This document shows, one piece after another, positions 7,019-18,053 of a stretch of 64,000 bases of DNA. The notes under the pieces were generated by a model. That model was not told the origin of the DNA. It searched no databases and worked only from the letters and a program-made list of their open reading frames with translations. A program made the position numbers and the translations under genes. Where the stretch lies: contig NZ_CP040098.1 of assembly GCF_005377625.1 (NCBI RefSeq), positions 310,001-374,000 on the forward strand, in the 5' to 3' direction. This DNA is from Desulfoglaeba alkanexedens ALDC (GTDB taxonomy: Bacteria; Desulfobacterota; Syntrophobacteria; Syntrophobacterales; DSM-9756). Every line of letters begins with the position of its first letter. Positions within the stretch are counted from its first letter, which is position 1.

Positions 7019-7423
7019 TCATCCGCCGGTTCCCCGCTGAAGGAGCAGTTCGATGTTGTGCCGGAGCGCCTGGGGATCCACCGGTTTTTCCATGAAGATG
7101 TCGGCCGCGATCCAATCCATGTCTTCCTCTACCGTCCGCGTGTAACCCTTTTCGGTTTCCGGCTGGGCGGAAACGATGATGATGGGCAGCTTCCGAAGGG
7201 CGTCGTCCTGGCGGATCTTCACCGCGAAGCGCAACCCTTCGTCCATGGTGGCCATCATGATGTCCAGAACGAGCAGATCGGGTTTTTCCGATTCGATGAG
7301 GCGATGGCCGTCCTGAGTGTTGCTGGCGGTAGCCACATCATAGCCGAAGCGCTTCAAAATGGCACTGGTGATCTCCAGGAAACTGGGATCGTCGTCGATG
7401 ATCACTATCTTCTTCCCGCTCAT
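7019..7423 (-). CDS. single-domain response regulator (CheY-like receiver)
   Basis: 134 residues, a receiver domain only. The acidic pocket is DDDP near residues 10-13, the phospho-acceptor is the aspartate in LLVLDIMM near residue 54, and the switch residues are the serine in IIVSAQ and the lysine in MEKPV. No DNA-binding or enzymatic output domain follows, so the signal must pass to another protein or feed back on the kinase. The gene starts directly after the stop of the adjacent histidine kinase, making the two a cognate pair and operon. Confidence 0.9.
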   Translation of the reverse strand: MSGKKIVIIDDDPSFLEITSAILKRFGYDVATASNTQDGHRLIESEKPDLLVLDIMMATMDEGLRFAVKIRQDDALRKLPIIIVSAQPETEKGYTRTVEEDMDWIAADIFMEKPVDPQALRHNIELLLQRGTGG

Positions 7424-9487
7424 TCATTCTCCCTTCCCTTCTGAATTGTACCACTCATCTCTTTCCCCAATCCGAGGCAGCTCGATGATGAATCGTACCC
7501 CCCGGCCGGATTCGCTTTCGACCCGGATCCGCCCTCCATGGCGCTCCACGATCGTTCTGGTGATGAAAAGACCCAGGCCTGTTCCCCGCGTGGCGGACCT
7601 GCGCGATGACGGCAATCGCTGGAACCTTCGGAAAAGTCTGTCTCGATGTTCCTGAGGGATGCCGGGGCCGCTGTTCCAGACTTCCAGCCGGCACCGTTCG
7701 CCGGCCGCCGCCCCGGACACTTCGATTATTCCACCCTTCTCCCCGTATTTCAACGCGTTGCTCAAAAGGTTGGTAAAAACACTCCGGAACAGCTCGGGAT
7801 CCACCCTCCATTCCAAATCTTCGGCAAGTCGGACCTGCACGCGCATGTCCTGTTCGCGGACCGCGGCCACCAGGCCGGCGAGCACCGGTTCCACCACTTC
7901 CGAACGGATCCGGCATCGGCGAGGCCGAACCGGCAGCTCGTCCTTCTCGATCCGCGAAAGATCCAGGTAATGCCGGATCATTTCCATGGACTGGTCCAAG
8001 TTCCGGCAAATAGCTTCCACCATGGCCGACTGTTCCGCGGACAGCTCCCCGAAAATCTTTTGGCGCAGCGCGTTGGCACTCATGATACTGTTGGCGATGG
8101 GAGATTTGAGTTCATGGGTGACGAAGCTGAGCATTTCCATGTAGTGTCGGTTCAGCCGCTCCAGGTTGCGATTAGCCTCGTTCAGGCGTTCGTTGGCCTC
8201 AACCAGGGCGTCCATATGCTCCTTCAATTCCGTCAGATCGTGAAAGTAACCGACGATCGCGAAGTCTTCCCGGCCTTCGTACAGAATGGTGGCCGAAAGG
8301 CGAATGGGGATGGTTCGGCCGTCCTTGGTGCGCACTTCCGTGTTGTAGTCCACCAGGATGCCCGGCCCCCCGTGGCCGTCGCCCAGAATGGCCTGCTTGA
8401 TGGCTTGAGCTTCCCCCGGGGGGTAAATGTCCTGGACGTTCAGCTGGTAAAGCGCTTCCGCCCGCGAGTAACCCAGCAGCCTCTGGGCCCCTCCATTGTA
8501 AAGGATGATCTTTCCCGAACGGTCGTTTGCCATGATACCGTCCGGGCAGGCCTCCAGCAGGCGTTCTTCGAACTCGTAGCGTTGCCGGAGCTTTTCCTGG
8601 TAGAGTCGGACTTCGGTGGCCATGAACTGGAAGGCGAACAGCAGCCGCATGAGTTCGTCGCTGCCCGACCTCCGGTTCAGTGCGCAGTCCCGACAATAGT
8701 CATAAGGGATCGAAACCGCACCCAGCTCCGACTGGGAGTCCGCCTCCAGAAGAGGGCAGAAGCCCGGCGTTTGATTGATCCGGGCCAAGGCGGGTTCATG
8801 GAGCTCCTTCCGGCAAAGCGGTGTTTCCTGGATTTCGCTTGCCACCTCGTCCAGGTCCCCGCGGGCGAGAGACCGTGTCATGCGAAGCAGCCGATCCACG
8901 GGCCGGGTGATGAGGCCCGAAAACCAGCGCGAAAGGAAAAAGCCTGCACACAGGACCATGGCCGTGAGCGCCCCCAGCAGGCGCACCAGCCGCATCGAAA
9001 GATCGTCCAAGAAGGCGGTTCGTACCCCAACGCGAACCAGGACCCGTTTCCGGCCGGATCCTTCCGGCAGCAAGATACGCGCCTCACAAATTCTCCCCGC
9101 CGGCGTCTTGAAAATGGAGAAGTCGCCTTCACCCCGGCGGTGAGGATCCACGGACGCCGCCTCATGGCCCGCTTTTTCGGCTCGAAACAGCACCTCCCCT
9201 TCCCGTTCGGGATCGCGCCCTTCCACGTATACCAAGTTCGGAATCAGCCGGACCAGTTCCCCGGCGCGCTCGACCCATGGCCCGGACCCGGGTTCCCCTG
9301 GAAGCCGTTCCACTTCCGCCCCCACTACTTCAGCCACTCGCGCCGCCTCAACCCGCGCGTCCCGCTCCACAGAAGGCAGCACGCCGAAGCGAATCCCTCC
9401 CCATCCGGCCGACACGACCAGCACGATCATCCCAAGGGTGACCAGGGTGATTTTTGTGCGGAAATTCAGCCGGTTCACAAATCCCAT
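7424..9487 (-). CDS. membrane sensor histidine kinase with PAS domain and a cysteine-rich linker
   Basis: 687 residues from ATG 9487. A TM segment (about 12-32) is followed by an extracytoplasmic sensor region (about 40-160), a second TM segment (about 168-186), a HAMP region (SGLITRPVDRLLRM), a linker, a PAS domain (about 305-420, PDGIMANDRSGKIILYN), a coiled linker, HisKA with His458 in FVTHELKSP, and HATPase with N-box LLSNALKYG and G-box GTGLGLF. The linker between HAMP and PAS holds Cys225, His230, Cys244, Cys265 and Cys268 (the last two as CRDC), unusual for this position and suggestive of a metal or Fe-S site. A TTG at 9541 would add 18 residues before the first TM. The gene is coupled to the receiver gene downstream. 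Confidence 0.87.
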   Translation of the reverse strand: MGFVNRLNFRTKITLVTLGMIVLVVSAGWGGIRFGVLPSVERDARVEAARVAEVVGAEVERLPGEPGSGPWVERAGELVRLIPNLVYVEGRDPEREGEVLFRAEKAGHEAASVDPHRRGEGDFSIFKTPAGRICEARILLPEGSGRKRVLVRVGVRTAFLDDLSMRLVRLLGALTAMVLCAGFFLSRWFSGLITRPVDRLLRMTRSLARGDLDEVASEIQETPLCRKELHEPALARINQTPGFCPLLEADSQSELGAVSIPYDYCRDCALNRRSGSDELMRLLFAFQFMATEVRLYQEKLRQRYEFEERLLEACPDGIMANDRSGKIILYNGGAQRLLGYSRAEALYQLNVQDIYPPGEAQAIKQAILGDGHGGPGILVDYNTEVRTKDGRTIPIRLSATILYEGREDFAIVGYFHDLTELKEHMDALVEANERLNEANRNLERLNRHYMEMLSFVTHELKSPIANSIMSANALRQKIFGELSAEQSAMVEAICRNLDQSMEMIRHYLDLSRIEKDELPVRPRRCRIRSEVVEPVLAGLVAAVREQDMRVQVRLAEDLEWRVDPELFRSVFTNLLSNALKYGEKGGIIEVSGAAAGERCRLEVWNSGPGIPQEHRDRLFRRFQRLPSSRRSATRGTGLGLFITRTIVERHGGRIRVESESGRGVRFIIELPRIGERDEWYNSEGKGE

Positions 9488-14005: not shown

Positions 14006-14383
14006 TCAGGCCGAGGGATCAATCCAGGGTGTAGCCCCGTTCCCCCGAATGATGGCCACAAGCCTCCCACCTTCGAAGCGAAGCGTGTGCACGAAATCGG
14101 TTGGGCCGAAGTTGTAGATCCATTCCTCGACGATTTTCTTGTCGTAGCCTCGGGACGTTCGGATGATCCGTTCCCCGACCGTCTGTTCGTATAGAGGCGG
14201 GCCGCATTTGGCCAGGACATCGATCTTGAGTTCCCCGATCAGCACCAGCCGGGTGCCGCAGCGCAGGGACGGTATGGAATCTTCGGACTCGATCGCAGGG
14301 GTTCCCACGACAAGCCAAAGCACCAGCACAACGACCGCCCTCGCGGCTCTCCACCCAGCCCTCCCCCTCTTTTGAATATCCAT
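14006..14383 (-). CDS. exported DUF2845 family protein
   Basis: 125 residues. An N-terminal basic segment followed by a hydrophobic stretch (AARAVVVLVLWLVVGTPA) looks like a signal peptide, so the protein is likely periplasmic. The mature part CGTRLVLIGELKIDVLAKCG, then IVEEWIYNFGPTDFVHTLRF and EGGRLVAI, matches my memory of DUF2845, small exported proteins with two conserved cysteines whose role is unknown. It is convergent with fabD, with a 20-base gap, and stands alone. Confidence 0.72.
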   Translation of the reverse strand: MDIQKRGRAGWRAARAVVVLVLWLVVGTPAIESEDSIPSLRCGTRLVLIGELKIDVLAKCGPPLYEQTVGERIIRTSRGYDKKIVEEWIYNFGPTDFVHTLRFEGGRLVAIIRGNGATPWIDPSA

Positions 14384-14565: not shown

Positions 14566-16590
14566 TCAAGCTTTTCCCGCCACAACCTCAAAGGCTTTCA
14601 CGACGAGCTCCTGCGGTATGTCCCGCACGCGTTCCACCTCGCCGGGTGCCTTGGGGATGATCCAAACCGGCCCCCTGGCGTCTTTTTTCTTGTCCTTCAT
14701 GAGCGCCTGGACCAGCGCGGCGGGAGGAGCCTCCAGGGGGCTTCGGATCGGCAGTCCGAAACCCTCCAGCACCGAAACCAGGCGATGTTCCAGGGAGGGT
14801 TCCGTTTTCCCGAGGAGGGTTCCGAGTCTGACAGCCACCCGCATGCCGAGCGCCACCGCCTGGCCGTGGGGAACCGAGTAGTCGCTCAGAACCTCGATGG
14901 CGTGGCCTCCCGTGTGCCCCAGGTTCAGAAGCTGGCGCAACCCGAAATCCCTTTCATCTTCCATGACGATCCGCGCCTTGATGGCTAGGCACCTTCGGAC
15001 GATTCTTTCCGTAACGGAATCGGGCAGAGGATACCCCGCCCGGCGCGAAGGGGCTCTTGAGACAAGGTCCTCCAGGTTGCCGAACAGGTCCTCTGAATCC
15101 AGCAGTCCGTACTTGATGACTTCCGCCATGCCGTTTTGCCATTCTGCTTCGGGCAGGCTTCGGCAGACAAACGGGTCCACCAGGACGCCTGCCGGGTGGT
15201 GGAAGCTTCCCACGAGGTTCTTGCCGCTGGGCAGATCCACCCCGGTTTTCCCCCCCAGGCAGCTGTCCACCTGGGCCAGCAGGGTCGTCGGCACTTGGAT
15301 GACGGGAATGCCTCGCATATAAACGGCCGCCAGAAACCCCACGACGTCCCCCGTCACGCCGCCGCCCACCGCCACCAGGATCGAACCCCGATGGGCGCCC
15401 TGCCGCACCATGTCTTCGGCAAGCCGTTCCACAGACGCCAACCGTTTCTCGCTCTCTTTCGCCTCCCAGAAGATGGTAGGAACTTCCCGGCCCAACGATT
15501 CCAGTTCCGTTCCTAAATGCTCCTGAAGCGCCGCATCCACCACGGCCACCGGCTCGAACCGTGCAAAGTGCCGATGGAGCAGTTCCTTGAGGCGGGAAAA
15601 GCTTTGAGACTCGATCCAGACACGGCTCGTGGACGCATCCTCAGAGTGAGCGGCGAGTCCCGCTTCCTCGATGCCTTCCGGAAACACGATGCGGCACCCC
15701 AGCCTTCCCGGGTTGGAGTTCTTTCGGCCGTTGTGCCAGTCGAGCAGACGGTTGGTTTCCTCCAGCGCCTGCCGGCAGAAATCGCCGAAAAAGTCGGCCG
15801 TATCCCGAAAGGTGCGGGCGAAGGCTTCCCGGTCGCTCCGTTTCATTTGGTCCACGGTCTGGAGGAAGGCGTCCTGGAGGGCCTCCAGCGCTTCCGCCTT
15901 GAACGGATTGTCCATGCCGATGGCCCCGTAAAGGGCGGGATCCTGGGCAAAGATGCGCCCGATCAGATCCACTTCCAGACGGTAGATGGGACTGGTGTAA
16001 TTCAGGCTTTCCGCCACGTCCACCCGAAGGCGCCGGAGGGTGTGACCCAGCACCACGGTGGTGAGGTGCGGAAGGAGCTGGATGACGGTCATCATCCGAT
16101 CGTGTTCTTCCGGCGTGCACACATGGAGCTTCAGTCCTTCGCTTTCGAGGGTCCGGGTCAGCCATTCCCAGGCGTCCCGGGCGACGCGTTTCCCCGGACA
16201 GACGATCATGGTCTGCCCGGAGACGGTGGAGACATAAGGCCCGAACATGGGGTGGAGCCCCACCACCGAAGCGGGGGAGGCCTCCATGGTCTTCATGACG
16301 TCCACCTTGAGGGAACAGATATCGACAAGCAGCTGACCGGGACGCGTCAGGGAAACGAGCGGGCGGATGATTTCTTCCGCATTCTGAAGAGGCAGGCTGA
16401 AAAGCACCACGTCCGCGCGCGTGACGACTTCTTCGTTGGCCGGGGACGTAGCGCGGTCGGAAATCAGCACCTCACATCCCCGGCTTCTAAAAAAACGGTG
16501 GAAAAGCCGCCCCATGGCCCCTAGGCCCCCCACGATGCCCACCAGGGGAAACCGGGGCCAGGTAAAGTCTCCGCTTGCACCCTTCTGCAT
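14566..16590 (-). CDS. bifunctional prephenate dehydrogenase / 3-dehydroquinate synthase fusion
   Basis: 674 residues. Residues about 15-290 are an E. coli-like TyrA dehydrogenase without chorismate mutase: NAD-binding GIVGGLGAMGR (18-28), catalytic His113 in GLHPMFGP, EHDRMMTVIQ, and SPIYRLE with Arg204. Residues about 300-674 are a complete AroB: AVGGGVTGDVVGFLAA (407-422), VPTTLLAQVDSCLGGKTGVD (433-452), NGMAEVIKYG with Glu490 and Lys493, LNLGHTGGHAIE and HGQAVALGM. All key AroB residues appear present. One protein thus serves step 2 of the shikimate route and the tyrosine branch. ATG 16590 has AGGAGG four bases before it; a TTG at 16611 overlaps that site and is rejected. It is the second gene after DAHP synthase. 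Confidence 0.9.
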   Translation of the reverse strand: MQKGASGDFTWPRFPLVGIVGGLGAMGRLFHRFFRSRGCEVLISDRATSPANEEVVTRADVVLFSLPLQNAEEIIRPLVSLTRPGQLLVDICSLKVDVMKTMEASPASVVGLHPMFGPYVSTVSGQTMIVCPGKRVARDAWEWLTRTLESEGLKLHVCTPEEHDRMMTVIQLLPHLTTVVLGHTLRRLRVDVAESLNYTSPIYRLEVDLIGRIFAQDPALYGAIGMDNPFKAEALEALQDAFLQTVDQMKRSDREAFARTFRDTADFFGDFCRQALEETNRLLDWHNGRKNSNPGRLGCRIVFPEGIEEAGLAAHSEDASTSRVWIESQSFSRLKELLHRHFARFEPVAVVDAALQEHLGTELESLGREVPTIFWEAKESEKRLASVERLAEDMVRQGAHRGSILVAVGGGVTGDVVGFLAAVYMRGIPVIQVPTTLLAQVDSCLGGKTGVDLPSGKNLVGSFHHPAGVLVDPFVCRSLPEAEWQNGMAEVIKYGLLDSEDLFGNLEDLVSRAPSRRAGYPLPDSVTERIVRRCLAIKARIVMEDERDFGLRQLLNLGHTGGHAIEVLSDYSVPHGQAVALGMRVAVRLGTLLGKTEPSLEHRLVSVLEGFGLPIRSPLEAPPAALVQALMKDKKKDARGPVWIIPKAPGEVERVRDIPQELVVKAFEVVAGKA

Positions 16591-16680
16591 AGGTCCTCCT
16601 CGGTTTGTCAACCCGCATGACTCGGCACGGGCTCCCGGCCCGCCGGCCGATGAGTCGAAAAAAGACGGCGCACGGTCCCC

Positions 16681-17754
16681 TCACGCACCCGCTTCCACCT
16701 TTTCACCGGCTCTCACCTGGTGCGCCCCGGGAACCAACAGCAGCTCCCGCCCCACCGCCTTCGCCACCGGGCGAAGTCTCTCGATGAGATTCGCCATCCC
16801 TTCGGGTGTCAGCGACTGGGCGCCGTCGCTGAGTGCCTCGTGGGGACGGACGTGAACTTCGATCATCAATCCATCGGCACCGGCGGCGACGGCGGCCAGG
16901 GTCATGGCCGGAATGAGGTCCACGCGCCCCAGAGCGTGGCTCGGGTCCACGATGACGGGAAGATGCGTGAGCTGCTTGAGCAGCGGCACGGCGCTCAGGT
17001 CCAGCGTATTTCGAGTCTCCGTTTCGAAGGTCCGGATGCCGCGTTCGCAGAGGATCACCTTGCCGTTTCCGCGGCTCATGATGTATTCCGCCGACATCAA
17101 GAATTCCTTAATGGTCGCCGACATTCCCCGCTTAAGGATCACCGGCTTATCCAGCTGGCCAACTTCGGTGAGGAGCCGAAAGTTCTGCATGTTGCGGGTA
17201 CCGATCTGGAGGACGTCCGCGTACTTGTAAACCAGCAGCAGATCGCGGGGATCCATTATTTCGGTGACGACGGGCATGCCGGTCCGTTCCCGGACGTCGC
17301 TCATGAATTTCAGCGCCATCTCGCCCAGCCCCTGGAACGAGTAGGGCGAAGTCCGGGGCTTGAATGCGCCGCCCCGCAGAAGCGGGATGCCCAGTTCATG
17401 GAGGGCGTCGGCGATCTCTTCCAGCACTTCCCGGCCTTCCACCGCGCAGGGACCGGCGATGATGGGAATCGCCTTTCCACCGAATTCGCAATTTGGGCCG
17501 ACCTGGAACCTCGTGTTGTCTTCCTTGAATTCCCGGCTCACCAGTTTGTAGGGCCTCAGGATGGGGTGAGCCGATTCCACACCGGCGAAAGACGTATACG
17601 GAATTTCCTGGAGAATGTCCCGGTCGCCGATGAGACCGACGATGGTACGGCGTTCTCCCTTGGAAATGTGGGTTTTCAGCCCCAGCTTTTCCATTTTCAT
17701 GACGAGTTCCCGCAGTTCGTCTGCGGTGTGATCGGGTTTCATGACGATGATCAT
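16681..17754 (-). CDS. aroF: 3-deoxy-7-phosphoheptulonate (DAHP) synthase, type I-beta with N-terminal regulatory domain
   Basis: 357 residues. Condenses phosphoenolpyruvate and erythrose 4-phosphate, the first step to chorismate. Residues 1-70 (MIIVMKPDHTADEL...GLKTHISKGERRTIVGLIGD) form the ferredoxin-like feedback domain of the type I-beta enzymes; the barrel follows with IAGPCAVE, LLRGGAFKPRTSPYSFQG, LQIGTRNMQNF, ILKRGMSATIKE, GKVILCERGIRTFE and IVDPSHALGR, which hold the PEP, phosphate and metal ligands. AAGGAGGG lies before ATG 17754. It is followed 90 bases later by tyrA-aroB. A leader peptide and hairpins precede it, so both end-product inhibition and attenuation are likely. Confidence 0.95.
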   Translation of the reverse strand: MIIVMKPDHTADELRELVMKMEKLGLKTHISKGERRTIVGLIGDRDILQEIPYTSFAGVESAHPILRPYKLVSREFKEDNTRFQVGPNCEFGGKAIPIIAGPCAVEGREVLEEIADALHELGIPLLRGGAFKPRTSPYSFQGLGEMALKFMSDVRERTGMPVVTEIMDPRDLLLVYKYADVLQIGTRNMQNFRLLTEVGQLDKPVILKRGMSATIKEFLMSAEYIMSRGNGKVILCERGIRTFETETRNTLDLSAVPLLKQLTHLPVIVDPSHALGRVDLIPAMTLAAVAAGADGLMIEVHVRPHEALSDGAQSLTPEGMANLIERLRPVAKAVGRELLLVPGAHQVRAGEKVEAGA

Positions 17755-17793: not shown

Positions 17794-17899
17794 GAGCGTT
17801 CCGTTCCCGAAACGCTCAGAAACACCGAAGGCCGTGGTGGACGCCACGGCCTTCAAAAGCAAAAGCCGTGGGATGCTTGAAGGTCAGCCCACGGCTTTC
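17794..17899 (-). promoter_or_regulatory. attenuator-like set of mutually exclusive hairpins ahead of DAHP synthase
   Basis: Read on the minus strand after the leader peptide: segment 1 GAAAGCCGTGGG (17899-17888), segment 2 CCCACGGCTTTT (17872-17861) followed by GCTTTT, segment 3 GAAGGCCGTGG (17854-17844), segment 4 CCACGGCCTTC (17837-17827). Segments 1:2 (11 bp, loop 15) and 3:4 (11 bp, loop 6) can form together, while 2:3 pair over 7 bp (CCACGGC/GCCGTGG) and exclude both. A further CCGTGGG copy inside the leader, just after the aromatic codons, could also pair with segment 2. A third stem GAGCGTT/AACGCTC is at 17817-17794. The U-rich stretch follows 1:2, not 3:4, so which stem terminates is unsettled. 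Confidence 0.75.
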
Positions 17900-17925: not shown

Positions 17926-18015
17926 TCAGATCATCGGCGGACCAACCCCCACGGGGCAGTAATACCACCGAAAATAAAAATACACGCCGGCCGCCGAAAC
18001 GGAATCGAACTGCAT
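17926..18015 (-). CDS. aromatic leader peptide of the DAHP synthase operon
   Basis: A 29-codon minus-strand frame from ATG 18015 to TGA 17926. It encodes an aromatic run, YFYFRWYY, at residues 12-19: four Tyr, two Phe and one Trp in eight codons, then CPVGV. GAGGG lies eight to nine bases before the ATG, and a good promoter lies 30-60 bases upstream. The placement before the DAHP synthase gene and in front of competing hairpins is what is expected of a ribosome-stalling control peptide sensing charged tRNA(Tyr), tRNA(Phe) and perhaps tRNA(Trp). The peptide itself probably has no other function. Translation is inferred, not shown. Confidence 0.82.
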   Translation of the reverse strand: MQFDSVSAAGVYFYFRWYYCPVGVGPPMI

Positions 18016-18053
18016 TTTTTGAGCCCTCTTCATTGGAAAAAGATAGCATGTGT

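Follow-up and report, generated by a model that had tools for sequence, protein, structure and literature searches.

The window, by which we mean the whole 64,000-nucleotide stretch of the Desulfoglaeba alkanexedens ALDC genome analyzed here, contains a single open reading frame on the minus strand (14566-16590) that encodes 674 residues plus stop and joins a prephenate dehydrogenase (TyrA) domain to a 3-dehydroquinate (DHQ) synthase (AroB) domain, both scoring above their Pfam cut-offs. The initial annotation had delimited the same frame and read it as a single TyrA plus AroB protein. Our analysis agrees and places it on the minus strand; both domains are complete, and neither was found separately in the genome. 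The 674 codons begin with an ATG at 16590, preceded by the Shine-Dalgarno sequence AGGAGG (16595-16600, minus), which has a predicted duplex energy of -11.8 kcal/mol. The gene directly upstream in the operon is aroF (16681-17754, minus, start at 17754), which encodes a type I DAHP synthase with a ferredoxin-like N-terminal domain (PF00793, PF18152, NF006421). Just downstream of the fusion gene lies a small DUF2845 gene (14006-14383, minus); no similar counterpart was found in the loci of the relatives compared.

The TyrA half comprises residues 1-290 (15721-16590, minus). Its PDH_N (45.9 bits, Pfam cut-off 26.5) and PDH_C (57.5 bits, cut-off 22) matches fall within the first 261 residues of the fusion protein, and its best structure match by sequence is 2PV7, the dehydrogenase of the Haemophilus influenzae T-protein. 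The authors of that structure name Ser179, His200, Asp206, His248, Asp249, His260, Tyr288, Arg297, Gln301 and Tyr306 (PMC2954222). In our alignment, Ser179, His200, His248, Asp249 and His260 correspond to S93, H113, H163, D164 and H175, and Tyr288, Arg297, Gln301 and Tyr306 to Y203, R212, Q216 and Y221, all of which are conserved in the TyrA half. The TyrA motifs had been described as intact on the basis of His113 and Arg204. His113 is indeed the catalytic histidine (Escherichia coli His197, H. influenzae His200), but Arg212 is the residue that lines up with the substrate-binding arginine (E. coli Arg294, H. influenzae Arg297), and Arg204 is another conserved arginine, in the motif SPIYR. The gating residue Asp206, which is said to be invariant in bifunctional chorismate mutase/dehydrogenase enzymes (PMC2954222), is replaced by Tyr119, consistent with the lack of a mutase domain in the fusion protein. 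The TyrA half is of the T-protein type, and its substrate would be prephenate rather than arogenate, going by the T-protein class only.

The AroB half spans residues about 324-674 (14569-15621, minus), with DHQ_synthase and DHQS_C, both above their Pfam cut-offs, in residues 376-636. It matches the NCBIfam aroB model TIGR01357 at 313.8 bits (cut-off 305) over positions 3-342 of 344 and falls below the cut-off of TIGR04425. Active-site residues were assigned by what we take to be the corresponding Aspergillus nidulans numbering. The metal ligands E490, H559 and H575, together with K448, K457, N458, K493, K538, R552, N556, H563 and K635, are invariant in the five fused proteins, two split ones and 16 other AroB sequences, so that every DHQ synthase residue we checked is present, in line with the earlier description of the AroB motifs as complete. 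The equivalent metal-binding histidine has been discussed for Aro1 (PMC9074039). Counting against a fully working enzyme, the N-terminal hairpin of AroB seems to be shorter throughout the lineage, whether the protein is fused or split. The AroB half would be expected to convert DAHP to 3-dehydroquinate.

An AlphaFold2 model built on a 44-sequence alignment had a mean pLDDT of 89.5, with the two domains mostly above 90. Values below 50 were confined to residues 1-6 and 293-321; the latter stretch is the interdomain linker (15628-15714, minus), which is predicted to be disordered and is 8-27% identical among the fused proteins, compared with 52-61% for the domains. The pTM of 0.63 fits two domains that would have no fixed mutual orientation. 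The top PDB fold matches found with Foldseek were AroB structures, with a TM-score by target of about 0.86; 2-deoxy-scyllo-inosose and valiolone synthases were also among the matches.

Ahead of aroF we identified a candidate leader peptide ending in ...GVYFYFRWYYCPVGVGPPMI (17926-18033, minus). It is rich in tyrosine, phenylalanine and tryptophan, with the aromatic run VYFYFRWYY, and its frame ends VYFYFRWYYCPVGVGPPMI, after which come two GC-rich hairpins (17825-17898, minus), the second terminator-like with its stem at 17856-17825. An aromatic leader occupies the same place in all seven genomes that share the locus and in two genomes of another family; runs resembling FYFYYGWY, with hairpins, are present in the leaders of six relatives and the two other-family genomes, and the hairpin pair between leader and aroF recurs in relatives. 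A search of Rfam returned nothing credible, including in the leader and hairpin region before aroF. Leader and hairpins together are a strong candidate for an aromatic attenuator, and their arrangement supports a model in which charged aromatic tRNAs would attenuate the operon. The placement of the fusion gene after a DAHP synthase gene and an aromatic attenuator, as the initial annotation had it, is therefore retained, with aroF directly upstream and an attenuator-like leader in front. Because they share an operon behind this leader, aroF, tyrA and aroB are probably produced together. The further proposal that the protein links early-pathway flux to tyrosine output holds as far as a shared gene and operon. 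A terminator-like hairpin with a T-run also lies between aroF and the fusion gene (16667-16689, minus); chance alone would account for as many such sites as the region holds.

Searches with the fusion protein, PF01761 and PF20463 each gave a single match in the genome (one contig of 3.37 Mb, estimated to be 97% complete). The initial annotation had asked whether a stand-alone aroB or tyrA exists elsewhere; a search across the whole genome found no second copy of either, and the fusion protein is its sole TyrA and sole intact DHQ synthase. Chorismate mutase is encoded separately in pheA, which is followed by aroD, aroE and aroA. Directly upstream of pheA we found the remnant of a gene for AroB' (PF01959), the DHQ synthase II of the DKFP route (3105188-3105565 of the genome contig, corresponding to 7189-7566 of the extracted locus L153): residues 1-38 are followed by a frameshift, residues 39-71, a loss of ~206 residues, and residues 278-330. 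The other seven genomes of the family all carry an intact AroB', and in the four relatives examined its gene is likewise upstream of pheA. All seven also encode a homologue of its partner AroA' (TIGR01949), at about 260-280 bits, below the cut-off of 299; no AroA' match was found in the D. alkanexedens genome. Many genomes of the order seem to encode the classical DAHP/AroB route and AroA'/AroB' homologues together. With its alternative DHQ synthase reduced to a remnant, D. alkanexedens must draw all of its dehydroquinate from the fused AroB, if the organism is prototrophic; its lineage dropped the alternative dehydroquinate route.

We mapped the TyrA-AroB domain order, as had been proposed, counting fusions over 39 genomes of the order. 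The same fusion is open in four other genomes, three of the genus Desulfacinum (G162, G187 and G395) and one of a third genus (G316), whose fused protein is 720-725 residues long with a long linker. Two further genomes of the third genus (G211 and G334; loci L087 and L088) have separate tyrA and aroB genes that overlap by 8 bp (ATGCCTGA). The gene order argC-rpsI-rplM / aroF-tyrA-aroB / fabD is kept in all seven (five fused, two split). Other genomes of the order often have aroF-tyrA, with no aroB close by. In a metagenome-assembled genome (MAG) of the Desulfobacterales (L003) the order is aroF-tyrA-aroB, and tyrA and aroB share 4 bp (ATGA). Phylogenies of AroF, TyrA and AroB are congruent: D. 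alkanexedens branches first, and the second and third genera are sisters (ultrafast bootstrap 85, 100 and 93 in the three trees, and 100 for the concatenated alignment). The split pair, G211 and G334, is nested beside the fused G316. One fusion followed by one fission makes two events and separate fusions make three. In the split proteins, AroB carries an extra N-terminal stretch of several dozen residues ahead of its core and TyrA ends in a tail, which is what a cut linker would leave. The smaller number of events and these linker-like extensions favor a single ancestral fusion with a later fission in G211 and G334. The split genes of these two species also show that function does not depend on fusion.

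Among the matches listed from 395 genomes of the phylum (the best ~155), no other TyrA-AroB fusion was found beyond the Desulfacinum-related genera, and screening by the open-frame length of PF01761 matches revealed none among the matches listed from about 150 genomes of each of two other phyla; the survey was drawn from outside the Pseudomonadota, Bacillota and Actinomycetota. The longest AroB frames in other genomes were either AroK-AroB fusions or upstream open frames that did not match TyrA, and Nostoc matches to both halves were separate nearby genes, in what we take to be the scytonemin cluster. One MAG contig entitled Tatlockia sp. (L056) gave a TyrA match scoring like the cyanobacterial ones, and its title may be wrong.

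Several known fusions resemble the protein in part. Like the AroQ-TyrA T-protein of enteric bacteria, it has a TyrA of the same class, with 2PV7 as the nearest solved structure and the equivalents of Tyr288, Gln301 and Tyr306 in place. By contrast, it has no chorismate mutase domain, its partner is a C-terminal AroB and Asp206 is replaced by Tyr119; it scores 220.9 bits against the AroQ-TyrA model NF008400 (cut-off 273), with the match starting at model position 101. In the TyrA-EPSP synthase fusion (tyrA-aroF in Jensen nomenclature; PRK14806), TyrA is likewise N-terminal to a non-adjacent enzyme of the common pathway, but that partner is the enzyme of step 6, whereas here it is DHQ synthase, step 2. 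The corresponding model (NF011381/PRK14806) matches the TyrA part only, at 40 of the required 902 bits, and aroA is a separate gene. AroB is also the C-terminal half of the bifunctional AroK-AroB (PRK13951, PRK14021), whose partner is instead shikimate kinase; our protein has no SKI domain and scores far below the cut-offs of NF010627 and NF010556. The pentafunctional AROM enzyme of fungi has a DHQ synthase domain in common with the fusion, but AROM covers the consecutive steps 2-6, with AroB N-terminal and without TyrA. None of the matching NCBIfam models covers the TyrA-AroB pairing. Song et al. (2005; PMC1173090) list TyrA fused with AroQ, EPSP synthase (their AroF), HisHb, ACT and REG, as well as a four-domain Archaeoglobus protein, and mention aroB only in the context of gene order. 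The parts seen of an archaeal fusion survey (PMC11237513) and of the GapMind paper (PMC7311316) do not mention the pair. The suspicion that the pairing was not a described enzyme is upheld to the extent that we found no published description or name for it in the open-access literature and that the main survey of TyrA fusions lists other partners.

The reading we favor, with a probability of roughly 86%, is a bifunctional enzyme whose two active sites are independent and which arose by fusion of neighboring tyrA and aroB genes and benefits from their co-expression. In this model, tyrA and aroB would have become neighbors and then fused before three genera close to Desulfacinum diverged from one another. 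The N-terminal half would use NAD+ to oxidize prephenate to 4-hydroxyphenylpyruvate, and the C-terminal half, with NAD+ and a metal ion bound, would turn DAHP into 3-dehydroquinate. A flexible linker would separate the two sites, each acting independently of the other. Judging from their conserved residues, we infer that both halves are active. The pathway places DHQ dehydratase, shikimate dehydrogenase, shikimate kinase, EPSP synthase, chorismate synthase and chorismate mutase between AroB and TyrA. The two activities are non-consecutive, as originally pointed out, and the five enzyme steps plus chorismate mutase that separate them make direct channeling implausible. Stoichiometry and co-expression are the likeliest purpose of the fusion; its selective benefit would lie in making the two halves at 1:1 within one probably attenuated aromatic operon that also encodes DAHP synthase.

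Cross-regulation between the halves is possible but unsupported. In one such reading, the TyrA half would be a tyrosine sensor and the protein an allosteric device: tyrosine bound in the TyrA active site would throttle AroB and so bring step 2 of the shared pathway under end-product control. Regulatory or partner domains fused to DAHP synthase are a known control device, and the residues of the tyrosine site of H. influenzae TyrA (R297, Q301, Y306, Y288 and H260) are present as R212, Q216, Y221, Y203 and H175. However, prephenate binding requires these residues in any case, the halves are separate in two close relatives, and the disordered, poorly conserved linker and the pTM of 0.63 imply no interface. 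To our knowledge, no end-product control is usually described at step 2. We consider a sensor unlikely. The same disordered linker (293-321) would suit a precursor from which the cell makes two enzymes, by linker proteolysis or internal initiation. Codon 302 is an in-frame GTG with some Shine-Dalgarno complementarity (-9.3), and the fused gene of one Desulfacinum genome has an ATG at codon 296. The five fused genes do not conserve either start, though, and most of them have no plausible Shine-Dalgarno sequence, which leaves such a division of the product a slim prospect.

The AroB superfamily includes the 2-deoxy-scyllo-inosose and valiolone synthases seen among the fold matches, and the AroB half could in principle have drifted to another sugar-phosphate cyclase reaction. 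Its scores above the TIGR01357 and below the TIGR04425 cut-offs, the conservation of all the DHQ synthase residues checked and the want of another intact DHQ synthase in the genome make such drift very improbable. Finally, the initial annotation had named a sequencing error at the junction as what would undo its reading. The one thing that speaks for a sequencing or assembly artefact is the closeness of tyrA and aroB in relatives. Against it, separate records show the fused frame uninterrupted in five genomes spanning three genera, four of them besides D. alkanexedens and in two further genera; there is no length-modulo-3 shift across the junction, and GC3 is even along the gene. The chance of an artefact is practically negligible.

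Collectively, these data show that TyrA-AroB is a real fusion, inherited within a small group of sulfate-reducer relatives and probably bifunctional, in which familiar enzymes are paired in a new way. Aromatic-pathway fusions often join consecutive or regulatory steps. Here step 2 is joined to a terminal branch, and selection must therefore have acted through expression, stoichiometry or regulation, not through channeling. Annotation pipelines that name the protein after its best hit will leave one of the two fused enzymes out of sight. For the family, the locus amounts to a small natural experiment among close relatives: the two enzymes are fused in some, encoded by genes that overlap by 8 bp in others, or unlinked, and a second dehydroquinate route is present or absent.
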